Positions 1 through 59,962 of a stretch of DNA of 64,000 nt are shown one piece after another. Source of the stretch: Haloplanus natans DSM 17983 (GTDB lineage: Archaea > Halobacteriota > Halobacteria > Halobacteriales > Haloferacaceae); the NCBI RefSeq assembly GCF_000427685.1, contig NZ_ATYM01000003.1, positions 186,001 to 250,000 on the forward strand, read 5' to 3'. A model generated the notes under the pieces. It had not been told where the DNA came from and made no database searches. It saw only the letters and a list, made by a program, of their open reading frames with translations. Each line of letters begins with the position of its first letter. The stretch's first letter is position 1. Both the position numbers and the translations under genes were made by a program.

Positions 1-234
1 CGGGTTGCAACGTCACCGACGAGTACCGATTGGCGGTACTTCGGTATCCACACTATGTGGTAGTTGAGGTTGTACGTTGCGTGCCGTGTGGTCTTCATCC
101 GTACTACACACTATGCCTCTGTGGTGTCTTAAAACTATCGTACACGGTGGGAAATCCAGCCGTGCTATCATCGGTGGGGATGTACGCTATTGTCCGCTTG
201 ACCCGCGCCTGAAGACGCGGGTATGCGCTCGCAC
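1..234 (-). mobile_element. tnpA: Left end and 5' part of an IS200/IS605 element, cut by the window edge
   Basis: The minus strand from 98 down to the edge encodes the first 32 residues of a Y1/HUH transposase ([20 protein letters not shown], then YRQSVLV). It closely matches the start of the tnpA at 59522-59962. Bases 99-234 match the left end beyond that copy, including a small hairpin with arms CCCGCG and CGCGGG near 211-220. The rest of tnpA and any tnpB lie outside the window. This copy runs straight through the point where the other copy carries a 51-nt insertion, so it serves as the empty site. Confidence 0.85.
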
Positions 235-4674: not shown

Positions 4675-5127
4675 CTAAACGTGTTCCGTGCGGTCGATAT
4701 ACTGCTCAATCGTGTCTGTCGAAACGTCGCCTGCCGTCCCAACGTAGTACGATTCCTCCCAGAACCCACCGCCCCACAGATACTCCTCCAAGAGCGACTC
4801 GTGCTGTTCCCACATCACTCGTGCCGTGATGCTCTTGACCGTTCGCACAATCTCGCTCGGGGCGTGCTTCGGATGGGCTGACAGAAACAGGTGTACGTGG
4901 TCAGGTGAGATGTGGAGTCGTTCGAGAGACGCGGTCTCTCGTGATCACGAAAATCTCCGATTTTCGGACGACGACAGTATCTCGTAATCGTACTCGTCAC
5001 ACACGTCGCGGAAACTCGCTTCCAATGAATCTTCAATTGGTTCGAGTATCGCGTGGCGGTATTTCGGGCACCACACAAAGTGGTAGTTGACGTTGTACAC
5101 CGTGTGGTCCGACCGCTTCTCACCCAT
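4675..5127 (-). pseudogene. tnpA: IS200-type TnpA (Y1 transposase) with an in-frame TGA inside a double-hairpin insertion
   Basis: Read from 5127, the frame gives MGEKRSDHTVYNVNYHFVW..., stops at TGA (4945-4947), then continues in the same frame to TAG at 4675-4677. It retains the HUH motif region (SPDHVHLFLSAHP) and a C-terminal TIEQYIDR that holds the nucleophile tyrosine. The family is about 133 residues long; this frame has 150 codons. The extra codons and the TGA come from the double-hairpin unit at 4923-4966, so frame is kept but the linker supplies a stop. It could yield protein only by readthrough. Confidence 0.85.
4923..4966 (-). repeat. Double-hairpin palindromic unit 1 (in tnpA)
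   Basis: Two perfect hairpins: stem CGAGAGAC with loop GCG, and stem CGAAAATC with loop TCC, joined by the linker TGATCA. Sizes are 8-3-8, 6, 8-3-8. Read on the minus strand it has the same order as unit 2 at 7194-7241, and both are flanked by GTCGTY before and AACSAC after. It adds whole codons to tnpA, but its linker introduces TGA. Confidence 0.8.
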
Positions 5128-5336: not shown

Positions 5337-5901
5337 TAGTACGACAACCGAGTCTGCTCGAACTGCTTCCATCGTTCAGATACTCTGTGAGGCCGAGGGA
5401 AAGGACGTTGTTCTTCGGTTCGATGGGTCGATGAGTGCTCCCACGTCGAAATATGACGGGTCATCGTACCACCACGATACACTCCCCAAGGCAACCCTAA
5501 ACGCAACTATGTCGCGTGCCAGCATCGAAGACGAAGGGGAGACGCTCATGTGTTTTGCAAAAATCTCGCTGGACGAATTAGACCGGGTGGGGATTGACCC
5601 CTCCATCGTGTACACAGAGCCGGTTGATGAACAACCAGAATACTGTGTTGTGGATATTAATGCGTCCCGTCAGTGGTGGCTTGATGAGTACGAGGAATTG
5701 ACGCGAGAGGAAGCAGAACAAGCAATCAACAACGGGCGTGAAGAAGAAGTTCTGCCGCCATGGGATGGCCTCCCCACCGTTACGGTCAACGTTGAACGCA
5801 CCTTAGAGTGCCATGAAAAGTCGTATGATTCTGGATTTCATGTCCAATATGCCTCACCGACCCACGAGATCGGCCGGCTTATTGACGTTCGAATTAAATG
5901 A
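5326..5901 (+). CDS. Hypothetical passenger protein (191 aa) between DUF2080 and tnpB
   Basis: Not recognised. The frame overlaps DUF2080 at its start and its TGA overlaps the ATG of tnpB (ATGA), so the three look translationally coupled. The start may be 5326 or the next ATG at 5329. The protein is acidic, has no membrane segment and no obvious catalytic motif. It begins with a Ser/Thr-rich stretch, then mixed alpha/beta sequence with a WWLDEYEELTREEAEQAI helix near residues 112-130. Codon use is less GC-rich than host genes nearby. It is not part of the usual IS605 gene set, so it is either a passenger or a lineage-specific accessory factor. Confidence 0.7.
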   Translation: MMSSSTTTESARTASIVQILCEAEGKDVVLRFDGSMSAPTSKYDGSSYHHDTLPKATLNATMSRASIEDEGETLMCFAKISLDELDRVGIDPSIVYTEPVDEQPEYCVVDINASRQWWLDEYEELTREEAEQAINNGREEEVLPPWDGLPTVTVNVERTLECHEKSYDSGFHVQYASPTHEIGRLIDVRIK

Positions 5902-7169
5902 CTACTAATCCCCTCGTCAAGACTCTGGACTTCCAACTCGACATTCAGAGTGGCAACGGGGGCCTGTTGTACGACGCCACACTTGAAGCCCGCTCGGTGT
6001 ACAACGAGACCATCCGTCTCGCCAAAGAAGGTGTGGATTGGAATGCAATTCCTGGCCGCGTGGCCGACGACGCCAACCTCGTGAAAAACACGACACAGCG
6101 CGTCGTCGCCAAGGCTCTCGGCGCAATGGAGAACTACTACGAGTACGACGACTTCGGACAGCCGAGTCACACCAAGGATGGCACGTACCCGCTTCGAGCC
6201 AACCACGAGGAAGGGTACAACCTGTCACTCACCGACGATGGTGACGTGGCGTTCCGCATCAGCGCGAAGCCGTACAATCACGTCAAGGGCGTCCTCGAAG
6301 GGAGTGAAGCCCACCTCGACATTCTCAGGACCGCACTCGAAAGCGACGAGTGGAAGATTGGGACGGCAGAAACCCTGTTCCACAACGAGAACGCCGAGTT
6401 GCACGTCAACGTCACCAATACCGAGCAGACCGTCCGAGACAAGCAGGACTCACGTACGGTCGTCGGTGTGGACGTGAACGAGGACAACGTAGCGTTGACC
6501 GCGCTCTCCGAGGGTGGCGTCGAGGACACGTTGGTTATCGATTTTCCCGAAATCAAGTTCGAGCGTCACCGCTACTTCACGATGCGAAAGCGCGTTCAGA
6601 ACGCGGGGAAAGACAGCATCCACAACACGCTGGAAGGGCGTGAGGAACGGTTCGTCCGTGACCGACTCCACAAGGTGTCTCGACATATCGTGGAGTGGAG
6701 TCAACGGTTTGAGAAGCCGTGTATCGTCTTTGAAGACCTCAAAGAGATGCGCGACAGTATCGACTACGGCACGCGGATGAACCGACGCTTGCACCACCTC
6801 CCGTTCCGCGCCCTTCAGTTCTATACGTCGTACAAGGCGTCATTCAGGGGGATTCCGACTGTGTGGATTAAGCCCAAGTACACGAGTCAGCGGTGTCCGA
6901 TGTGCGGGCATACGGAGCGTGCGAACCGTAACAAGAAGCGGTTCAAGTGCCGAGACTGTGGGCATCAAGACCACAGCGACCGTGGTGCAAGCGTCAACAT
7001 CGCCGTGAAAGGCGTGAAGAAACTCGATTGGAATGTGCCTGCTCTCAACAGCCTTCCCGTTGTTCGGAAGGTGCGACGGCAGGCATCGGGGGCCGTGGAC
7101 GCCCCGACCGTGACCCACCCGACCGTTCGAGGCTATCAGGCCGATGGTCGAGTGGGAGTATCCGACTAA
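5898..7169 (+). CDS. tnpB: RNA-guided endonuclease TnpB (IS605 type), intact
   Basis: A 423-aa protein with the canonical RuvC-like site: Asp in VVGVDVNEDNVA, Glu in CIVFEDLKEMRDS, Asp in HSDRGASVNIA. A zinc ribbon (CPMCG, then CRDCG) lies between the last two motifs. TnpB uses an omega-RNA made from the 3' end of its own element to cut DNA at the donor or at alleles lacking the IS, which favours retention of the transposon. It has a C-terminal tail of about 50 residues beyond RuvC-III. The start overlaps the stop of the 191-aa ORF. Confidence 0.9.
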   Translation: MTTNPLVKTLDFQLDIQSGNGGLLYDATLEARSVYNETIRLAKEGVDWNAIPGRVADDANLVKNTTQRVVAKALGAMENYYEYDDFGQPSHTKDGTYPLRANHEEGYNLSLTDDGDVAFRISAKPYNHVKGVLEGSEAHLDILRTALESDEWKIGTAETLFHNENAELHVNVTNTEQTVRDKQDSRTVVGVDVNEDNVALTALSEGGVEDTLVIDFPEIKFERHRYFTMRKRVQNAGKDSIHNTLEGREERFVRDRLHKVSRHIVEWSQRFEKPCIVFEDLKEMRDSIDYGTRMNRRLHHLPFRALQFYTSYKASFRGIPTVWIKPKYTSQRCPMCGHTERANRNKKRFKCRDCGHQDHSDRGASVNIAVKGVKKLDWNVPALNSLPVVRKVRRQASGAVDAPTVTHPTVRGYQADGRVGVSD

Positions 7170-7275
7170 CCCACGGGAAGCCTCGGGGTCGTTCGAAACG
7201 GCTACGCCGTTTCGTGATGACGAGAGACCGACGGTCTCTCGAACCACTTGACTCCGAGGCAATTCACTGATTGAA
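7100..7275 (+). ncRNA. Predicted TnpB omega-RNA / right-end region
   Basis: By analogy with IS605 TnpB systems, the omega-RNA is processed from the 3' end of the tnpB transcript through the right end. Here the expected terminal hairpin (GCCTCGGGG ... CTCCGAGGC) is present but split by a double-hairpin unit at 7194-7241. The intact form of the same hairpin is at 32161-32183. Limits are estimated; no sequence feature fixes the guide boundary. Confidence 0.3.
7194..7241 (+). repeat. Double-hairpin palindromic unit 2 (in the right-end hairpin of the tnpB element)
   Basis: Stem CGAAACGGC with loop TAC, linker TGATGA, stem CGAGAGACC with loop GAC. Sizes are 9-3-9, 6, 9-3-9. It shares flanks (GTCGTT before, AACCAC after) and order with unit 1 read on the minus strand. 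Stem sequences differ between the units while pairing is kept. Confidence 0.8.
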
Positions 7276-58280: not shown

Positions 58281-59525
58281 CTATGGTTTCAAGACGCATA
58301 CGTCCCAAGCGTCTCCTGCGTGATAGCATCGGCTTGGGTGTCTTGTGGGGCGGTCAAACGCCCCCCCATCCTCAGCCGAGTCATTGCCATCCGTGTGTTC
58401 TCTTGAATGGCTCTCTCCGCTGAGGTAGCGGTCTGCGATGTTTATCGCGCCGTTCATGTCCGCTTGGTACTCGCCCATCCAGCAAGCGTCGTTCGTACAC
58501 TTGAACGTCGCCTGTCGCGGGCGATACCCCATTTCACCGCACGCGTGGCACTCCTTCGACGTGTTGCGCGGGTTCACCGTCTCGACGGGGATACCCTTCT
58601 CGACGGCCTTGTAGCGTATCTGCGCGTGGAGTTTGGCGAATCCCCATCCGTGGAGACGCCGATTCATGAAGTCGCCGTAGTCCATCGACTCCCGTATGTA
58701 CGTCAGGTCTTCCAGAACGAGAACCGGGTTCTCGACGGACTCGGCGTACTCCACGACCTCGCGGGTGACGGTGTGGAACACGTCGTCTATCTGATCACAT
58801 ATATAGTCCCCGAAGGACTCCGCGATACGCTCGCTCCCGCGCGTCTGGAGTCGGCGCTTGGCGGTGAAGTAGGTCTTGCGGAGCCGACGGACGGTCTTGC
58901 CTTCGTCGGCACACAGTTCGGGCGCGGTCGGAGAACCGTGGCCGTCGCGGTGACACACCGTGACGAGTGACGCTTCCCCGATGTCCACTCCGATGGGCGT
59001 CCGCTCTTCGGCGGACACATCGGAGCGTTCCTCTATGTCGCGGGTGGCGGTAACGTGGAGATACCACGTTCCATCCCGCTCGAACAGCCGACTCTCGCCC
59101 ATCGTGGCGTCTCCCGCGTTCAACGCTTCCAACCAGTCCCGCTGTTCGGGATTCGGTTGAGCGGGCATCCAGAGGTGGTAGTCCTCGTGGTGCGGGATTT
59201 TGACGTACCACTCGATAGCGTTCTCGGGCTTGTGGTCGAGTCGTAGCCCTTCGTTCGTGAAGCGGACAGGGTGGTCGTCGTGAAGTTCGCCCGCGTTGTA
59301 GGTTGTCGTGAGTTGCGGGACGTACTTCTTGAGCGCGTTCTTTGCGTACCCGCTCAGGTCGTAGTTGACCACCACGTCGTTCGCTTCGGTCTGCGTGGTA
59401 CATCCGGCGTCGAAGGCGTCTCGGAGGGCGTGTTGGTACGCCTCTCGCGTCTCTCGGAGTTTCCTCCGCTTGTGGACGTTCGGGTCTACAAGTTTGAGCT
59501 CGAGCGTCTTCGTGAGTTCGGTCAC
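58281..59525 (-). CDS. tnpB: RNA-guided endonuclease TnpB, intact
   Basis: 414 aa with canonical RuvC residues: Asp in IGVDIGEASLVTVCH, Glu in VLVLEDLTYIRESMDYG, Asp in EYQADMNGAINIADRY, and a zinc ribbon CHACG ... CTNDAC. The start ATG overlaps the stop of tnpA, so TnpB is made after TnpA from one transcript. A C-terminal tail of about 45 residues follows RuvC-III. Confidence 0.92.
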   Translation of the reverse strand: MTELTKTLELKLVDPNVHKRRKLRETREAYQHALRDAFDAGCTTQTEANDVVVNYDLSGYAKNALKKYVPQLTTTYNAGELHDDHPVRFTNEGLRLDHKPENAIEWYVKIPHHEDYHLWMPAQPNPEQRDWLEALNAGDATMGESRLFERDGTWYLHVTATRDIEERSDVSAEERTPIGVDIGEASLVTVCHRDGHGSPTAPELCADEGKTVRRLRKTYFTAKRRLQTRGSERIAESFGDYICDQIDDVFHTVTREVVEYAESVENPVLVLEDLTYIRESMDYGDFMNRRLHGWGFAKLHAQIRYKAVEKGIPVETVNPRNTSKECHACGEMGYRPRQATFKCTNDACWMGEYQADMNGAINIADRYLSGESHSREHTDGNDSAEDGGAFDRPTRHPSRCYHAGDAWDVCVLKP

Positions 59526-59962
59526 GAATCGCCCTGCTTGTGCTGTTGGATGTAGTTCTCGACCGTCTCACTCGAAACGTGCCCGGCAGTCCCTGCGTAG
59601 TACCCTCGCGCCCATCCGATTTTCTCGCCGTCGTGGTCGGCGTATCGGTGGTTGTACTTGCGCGAGGAGATGCCCTTGAACCAGTTGGCGAGTAGTGCCG
59701 GTCCGTTCTTGGGCGGGCTACTGACGAACAGGTGAACGTGGTCGGGCTGTACGGTAAGGTCGAGAATTTCGACGCCTTTGTCGTTGGCTATTTCGTGGAG
59801 GATGGACCGGGCACGAGTGGCAACCTCGTTGACGAGTACCGACTGGCGGTACTGAGCGGAGCACGGCTCCGCGATGTCCGCAGAACCATCGGTTCTGCGA
59901 GACTTCGGCAACCACACTATGTGGTAGTTGAGGTTGTAGGTCGCGTGCCGTGTGGTCTTCAT
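59522..59962 (-). CDS. tnpA: IS200-type TnpA with a 17-residue in-frame insertion
   Basis: 146 aa, longer than the usual 130 or so. HUH motif PDHVHLFVSSPPK and nucleophile region VENYIQQHK are intact. Between NYHIVWLPK and YRQSVLV lie 17 extra residues (SRRTDGSADIAEPCSAQ) encoded by a 51-nt insertion that is absent from the copy at 3-98. The insertion follows the first beta strand, a surface position in known Y1 transposases by inference. The gene stays open, so it may be active. Confidence 0.9.
   Translation of the reverse strand: MKTTRHATYNLNYHIVWLPKSRRTDGSADIAEPCSAQYRQSVLVNEVATRARSILHEIANDKGVEILDLTVQPDHVHLFVSSPPKNGPALLANWFKGISSRKYNHRYADHDGEKIGWARGYYAGTAGHVSSETVENYIQQHKQGDS
59856..59899 (+). 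repeat. Double-hairpin palindromic unit 3 (in frame in tnpA)
   Basis: Stem GCGGAGC with loop ACG, linker GATGTC, stem CGCAGAACC with loop ATC. Sizes are 7-3-7, 6, 9-3-9, total 44. With seven flanking bases it makes a 51-nt insertion, with ACT on both sides. The empty site is in the copy at 1-98. Confidence 0.85.

Follow-up and report, generated by a model that had tools for sequence, protein, structure and literature searches.

A recurrent 51-nt double-hairpin insert at one codon junction of IS200/IS605-type tnpA genes in Halobacteria

The filled tnpA gene and its surroundings

The window analyzed here, 64,000 nucleotides of Haloplanus natans DSM 17983 (NZ_ATYM01000003.1, positions 186,001 to 250,000), contains a tnpA gene and the tnpB-like gene of the same insertion sequence (IS), together with several hairpin-bearing features (Table 1). 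The protein encoded by this tnpA is an IS200/IS605-type TnpA with a Y1 HUH transposase domain. It matches Pfam Y1_Tnp with an E value of 3e-34 (118 bits), the D-H-x-H motif and the Y are invariant in the TnpA alignment, and Foldseek links its AF2 model to the IS200 transposases 2ec2 and 2f4f. Between the codons for PK and YR, 51 extra nucleotides correspond to 17 codons (SRRTDGSADIAEPCSAQ) and consist of a 7-3-7 hairpin, a 6-nt linker and a 9-3-9 hairpin, with ACT at both junctions. An earlier reading of the sequence alone had proposed a 51-nt double hairpin that sits in frame in this gene and leaves the frame open, and both proposals were borne out. The insert folds at -20.4 kcal/mol, against -10.1 kcal/mol for dinucleotide shuffles (z -4.6), and more strongly than 200 of 200 of them. 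In the AF2 model the 17 inserted residues (21–37) form a low-confidence, unstructured loop that lies between strand 1 and helix 1, which the model suggests is a place where TnpA can bear an insertion.

Table 1. Features of the window that bear on the insert (positions counted on the plus strand; aa, amino acids).
Feature	Position	Strand	Basis and remarks
tnpA, 5' end, without the insert (empty site)	1..98	-	remainder of gene beyond window; 99.2% identical to the filled gene L025
Type II double-hairpin insert, 54 nt, in-frame TGA in linker	~4918..4971	-	in tnpA of another family (4690-5121), between EIL and RLH codons; empty relative L094:84-464
Type II double hairpin	7194..7241	+	just after the stop of tnpB (5898-7169)
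tnpB-like gene of the same IS as the filled tnpA, 414 aa, open	58281..59525	-	ORF list; Pfam PF07282
tnpA, IS200/IS605-type Y1 transposase, 146 aa, filled	59522..59962	-	Pfam PF01797; AF2 model; Foldseek 2ec2, 2f4f
Hairpin native to family A tnpA, AGTACCG-5-CGGTACT	59835..59853	-	adjoins the insertion point
Type I double-hairpin element, 51 nt	59852..59902	-	between PK and YR codons of tnpA; empty-site comparison, ~60 relatives
Hairpin 2 of type I element, 7-bp stem, 3-nt loop	59856..59872	-	98.1% of cells paired, 37 sequences
Hairpin 1 of type I element, 9-bp stem, 3-nt loop	59879..59899	-	96.7% of cells paired; both-side changes in 4/9 pairs

The gene fragment at the left edge of the window had been taken as an empty copy of the same gene. 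Its complete form (G000:C1:185715-186098) does lack the 51 nt, but it is a relative of the filled gene (73% identity over the gene) and not a sister copy. The closest filled/empty pair is formed by this empty copy of the home genome and the filled gene L025 of another genome, which are 99.2% identical over 369 nt. A pattern search of the home-genome sequence, for which all counts rest on 863 kb, was among the checks proposed with the original prediction; it found 11 double hairpins of such build and none in one first-order Markov control. No second copy of the 51 nt was found in the same sequence.

Two double hairpins of a different build, here called type II, also lie in the window. They follow the pattern GTCGT-hairpin-TGATCA-hairpin-ACGAC, i.e., two facing units, which occurred in 75 of 391 genomes, while the reversed control pattern occurred 0 times. 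In Halobacteria, type II double hairpins are a common feature, frequently located directly behind tnpB or close to IS605 genes. The 54-nt insert, itself in frame, is found at the identical codon junction in six further loci (L148, L150, L270, L339, L341, and L353).

Distribution among tnpA families

TnpA relatives were gathered from genome contigs and whole genomes, and the alignment for presence or absence proposed with the original prediction was made with them. The 17 extra residues at PK|YR were found in Natrialba, Halorubrum, Haloferax, Halobiforma, Natronorubrum and others, and the empty site (CCGAAGTACCG) in most relatives. The main search pattern, which was derived from the 3' half of the insert and took in two target bases (the TA flank) and therefore favors the tnpA site, matched 66 places in 59 of 391 Halobacteria genomes; about 56 of these can form the hairpins, and about 53 of those lie at the tnpA junction. 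Among viral contigs, the exact pattern gave no match, and a looser pattern matched 44 contigs, 0 of which had a TnpA match.

The host genes belong to five TnpA families (A–E), between which DNA identity is 62–69%. All 57 of the 57 inserts at this site that align in frame are 51 nt long. Empty genes outnumber filled ones in family A (66 vs. 19), family C (30 vs. 16) and family D (38 vs. 6), and family B is mostly filled (21/28). Relatives are thus not nearly all filled, and the earlier reading of the 51 nt as an insertion rather than of the empty copy as a deletion stands. Of 65 empty family A genes, 49 keep 7/7 matching arm bases in the hairpin native to family A tnpA; this hairpin was considered as a requirement for insertion and rejected, given that it is kept in family A and not conserved in family B.

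Inserts in different families can be nearly or fully identical. Those of L083 (family A) and L138 (family B) share 49 of 51 bases. The insert of L196 (family C) is identical at 51/51 positions to those of L284, L145, L211, and L287 (family D), whose exons are 62–63% identical to its own and whose right flank matches in 12 of 24 bases. Inheritance of the insert together with the gene cannot explain such identity across diverged families. Spread of one old insertion by gene conversion between IS copies, with no movement of its own, is also an unlikely account of the whole distribution. Family A exons, 90–99% identical, offer ample identity for conversion, and filled and empty copies coexist across genomes as conversion would have it, but the inserts that match at 49–51 of 51 positions sit between exons of 62–69% identity and in flanks that diverge within bases of the junction, and a unit with the same ends occurs at non-tnpA sites without a common flank. 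Within family A or B, some copies may nevertheless have been carried along by short recombination tracts between IS copies.

Trees computed with the insert left out are consistent with repeated insertion, as the filled genes do not form one clade. In family A (18 filled and 65 empty genes), 17 changes were needed and a single filled clade was rejected (p-AU 8e-80); in family D, six changes were needed for six filled genes; in family C, seven changes were needed at the 51-nt site and six at a third site that is used by another element; and in family B, five changes were needed and one clade was not rejected. These trees are quick ones with few strongly supported forks: the changes forced by the starred branches alone number 5 in A, 2 in B, 6 in C (all inserts) and 2 in D, and the counts may be raised by recombination between IS copies. 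Gain rather than loss is the probable direction of change; precise excision would scatter filled genes over the trees likewise. That the insert was ancestral to the TnpA families and was precisely lost many times, perhaps helped by the direct AGT repeats, is very improbable. The mostly filled family B, with its unrejected single clade, would fit such a history, but the filled genes of A, C, and D are mostly single tips amid empty ones and the inserts are far more alike across families than their hosts are.

Paired stems and coding consequences

When 37 distinct A/B-type inserts were compared, 97.3% of the cells paired. In 61 cells both sides have changed, and six pairs show such both-side changes. 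The covariation score was reached by 0 of 500 shuffles, and pairing fell to 24–48% when the partners were slid by 1–3 columns. The covarying stems indicate that the paired structure is maintained at the level of nucleic acid. With regard to RNA or DNA as that level, the wobble count gave five cells of the G-T type and nine of the C-A type, both of which are few. Compensatory stem changes of this kind do not suit an ordinary variable protein loop in which hairpins are incidental to coding. Length variation would be cheap in the unstructured loop where the AF2 model places residues 21–37, but many copies contain stops, unrelated hosts carry near-identical DNA and the element also occurs outside tnpA, all of which adds to the case against such a loop, and we consider it extremely improbable. 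It was also observed in type I inserts of all families that the loop triplets occur in both orientations (GAA/TTC, GGA/TCC) with the stems otherwise equal, as if single hairpins flip.

The A/B inserts are open except for one near-identical pair with TAA. The C/D inserts contain recurrent stops, with TAG in the loop of hairpin 1 (in D and in L196 of C). At the third site, the linker of the 54-nt insert contains TGA in 6/7 genes, and at a second site a 45-nt insert contains TAG. Altogether, 16 of 1155 insert codons are stops, compared to 3 of 7941 other codons of the same genes, which is about 37 times denser, although the copies are not independent. The dN/dS values of filled genes, 0.06–0.20, are like those of empty genes, and the A/B filled genes stay under purifying selection. 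For stop-bearing genes, dN/dS was set aside as a proof that they work, since their insertions are recent. The stop-bearing inserts in C/D look like recent hits that probably disable the transposase.

The density of stops and the otherwise intact genes around them would also be expected if the insert were removed from the message, either as an archaeal BHB intron or by ribosome bypass of the phage T4 gene 60 type, which would make the stops harmless. The stop-bearing C/D copies are separate tips in the trees, so recent insertion explains their intact flanks and splicing is unneeded. RNA folds of ten filled genes revealed no common bulge-helix-bulge at the junctions, no matching take-off and landing codons for bypass were found at the tnpA site, and the unit is also present outside tnpA, in the linkers of type II double hairpins. 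Removal from the message therefore has little to recommend it, and we give it only a slight chance. Repeated insertion, with some copies read through as a tolerated, disordered 17-residue loop, forms part of the explanation that we consider probable.

The 45-nt insert is a double hairpin with TGT-repeat flanks found at VWC|PKYR of family C tnpA in L147, L149, L193, and L267. In L193 and L267 it occurs together with the 51-nt element, two codons apart.

Ends, target and probable mode of movement

On the coding strand of tnpA the element has the ends 5'-TC...CAG-3', and its hairpins begin 3–4 nt inside each end. The same 51-nt TC...CAG unit was found within the linker of type II double hairpins (L427, L428, L430, L432, and L424), and matching empty linkers, e.g., GTCTCTCGGAATCACGG, are present elsewhere for L427, L428, L430, and L432. 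A 49-nt unit lies in a tnpB-like gene in L205, L208, and L274, where the assignment of L208 to tnpB is an antisense frame read by eye without a profile match, and a 49-nt copy in the family E tnpA L216 is out of frame. When the two target bases were left out of the pattern, more copies outside tnpA emerged. The original prediction had described the element from a single gene; it is real there, but it is also recurrent, has fixed ends and is present outside tnpA. Given the same ends and length outside tnpA, 51 nt is the native length of the element and its in-frame state is partly the luck of that number. The frame is open as was predicted, but with 51-nt copies in non-tnpA contexts and stops in some tnpA copies, the in-frame insertion is partly a by-product of length, and the 51-nt length is no proof of selection for frame. 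In the family E tnpA L283, near position 963, a type II double hairpin was observed nested within the first hairpin of the 51-nt element.

The element has a single orientation relative to its target, and the bases that follow it are T-N-N-C-G (TACCG, TATCG, TCACG, and TGACG). Insertion would thus take place before T-N-N-C-G, in one orientation and without clear target duplication, and the conserved Pro-Lys-Tyr-Arg codons of TnpA would supply this target. At the tnpA site of families A, C, and D there is an AGT repeat that may or may not be a duplication, and at other sites 1–2 bases slide.

The element has fixed ends and paired stems, has been inserted or lost repeatedly and has spread between unrelated genes. 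It is in our judgment quite probably a discrete, non-autonomous and site-selective mobile element that has repeatedly entered the tnpA genes of five families, and within this explanation its movement by a Y1 enzyme and its hyperparasitic life in IS200/IS605 elements are the inferred parts. By analogy, insertion in one orientation without clear duplication resembles IS200/IS605-type single-strand transposition and the behavior of the passengers of this process, the palindrome-associated transposable elements (PATEs) and REP dimers, so that a TnpA-type enzyme likely moves the element. Like PATEs and REP dimers, it would move as single-stranded DNA by means of a Y1 (HUH) transposase that recognizes the hairpins. 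Family A IS copies have TGAT as the target at their left end, a sequence that differs from the target of the element, and the interrupted TnpA therefore need not be the mover. A match between the element and the left end of the family A IS was sought and rejected, as the left-end hairpin of these copies is unlike the element. No longer parent IS with the ends TC...CAG was found. With tnpA as its main residence, the element appears to ride on IS200/IS605 elements and sometimes would disable them. More speculative, and somewhat less likely to be right than wrong, is the full picture of a 51-bp hyperparasite mobilized by transposases of the same class as those it targets and homing to one tnpA codon junction in many lineages, where it becomes either a harmless 17-residue loop or an off-switch.

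The element is most closely akin to PATEs, REP dimers and mitochondrial double-hairpin elements. PATEs were described in Haloquadratum and include 52-bp forms that consist only of termini (PMC3119063). Like them, the 51-nt element is haloarchaeal, has no transposase (it is too short to code for one) and has palindromes near its ends without terminal inverted repeats; the short terminal oligonucleotide and the frequent position beside other mobile elements are counted as further likenesses, and a lack of target duplication may be another. Unlike them, it consists of two complete hairpins in 49–51 nt at a fixed coding site in tnpA of five families, often in frame. SMR-A of Haloquadratum, about 110 bp long with prominent terminal inverted repeats, strongly favors IS605-type elements and PATEs, and the authors of that study argued that short repeats attack IS605-type elements (PMC3119063). 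SMR-A and the 51-nt element are both short and prefer IS605-type targets, but SMR-A targets near-terminal palindromes, mostly outside reading frames, and has the terminal inverted repeats that are absent here. The lack of terminal inverted repeats (TC...CAG) also sets the element apart from classical MITEs. The earlier statement that no haloarchaeal equivalent had been described therefore applies to the 51-nt element itself, while PATEs and SMRs are its relatives in spirit. In the literature searched, to which subscription papers and ISfinder did not belong, no description of the 51-nt element or of a fixed-site tnpA insertion was found.

REP dimers (REPINs) share the two-hairpin unit and stems of about 8–9 bp, and dimers within bacterial protein genes have been reported (PMC3733652, PMC3116915). 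They are, however, described in bacteria, where GTAG REPs are tied to RAYTs, and the 51-nt element ends in TC and CAG without a GTAG/CGTC tag. In Archaea, IS200 is the sole subclass of Y1 transposases observed (PMC6006769). The palindromic elements of Rickettsia, with which the original prediction drew a parallel that is fair as an analogy, are likewise palindromic DNA in frame in protein genes (summarized in PMC10969869), but they are about 150 bp long and enter many unrelated host genes. Here the 51-bp inserts are concentrated on one transposase codon junction: about 53 of the 56 hairpin-forming TA-flank matches are in tnpA, and other copies seen lie in a tnpB-like gene or in type II linkers. 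Mitochondrial double-hairpin elements and yeast GC clusters are palindromic, 40–50 nt long, flanked by AG or ACT and subject to rapid turnover, and one is reported within the protein gene rps3 (PMC4478555); they differ in being organellar, mostly intergenic and not tied to a single target gene.

The element would be a mobile unit close to the lower limit of size, one whose ends are exact, whose target is defined and whose filled and empty sites correspond closely. With it, the movement of tiny palindromic elements in archaea, in which RAYTs have not been observed, can be put to a direct test in Haloferax or Halorubrum. The element is also a natural example of mobile DNA altering a transposase coding sequence time and again, and it suggests one way in which proteins may acquire in-frame loops.

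Other hairpins in reading frames were noticed in the home genome. A CBS-domain-like protein (L172:2730-2770; G000:C7, near 1002730) has an in-frame double hairpin (REERGSSESRPEAD). A histidine kinase (L396, around G000:C7:2111296-2111577) contains four consecutive in-frame hairpins in the loop that precedes its G1 box (EHGSTSSRSETDD...), and its paralogues (L397-L402) carry from none to several hairpins, a variation which indicates that in-frame hairpins are not limited to transposases.
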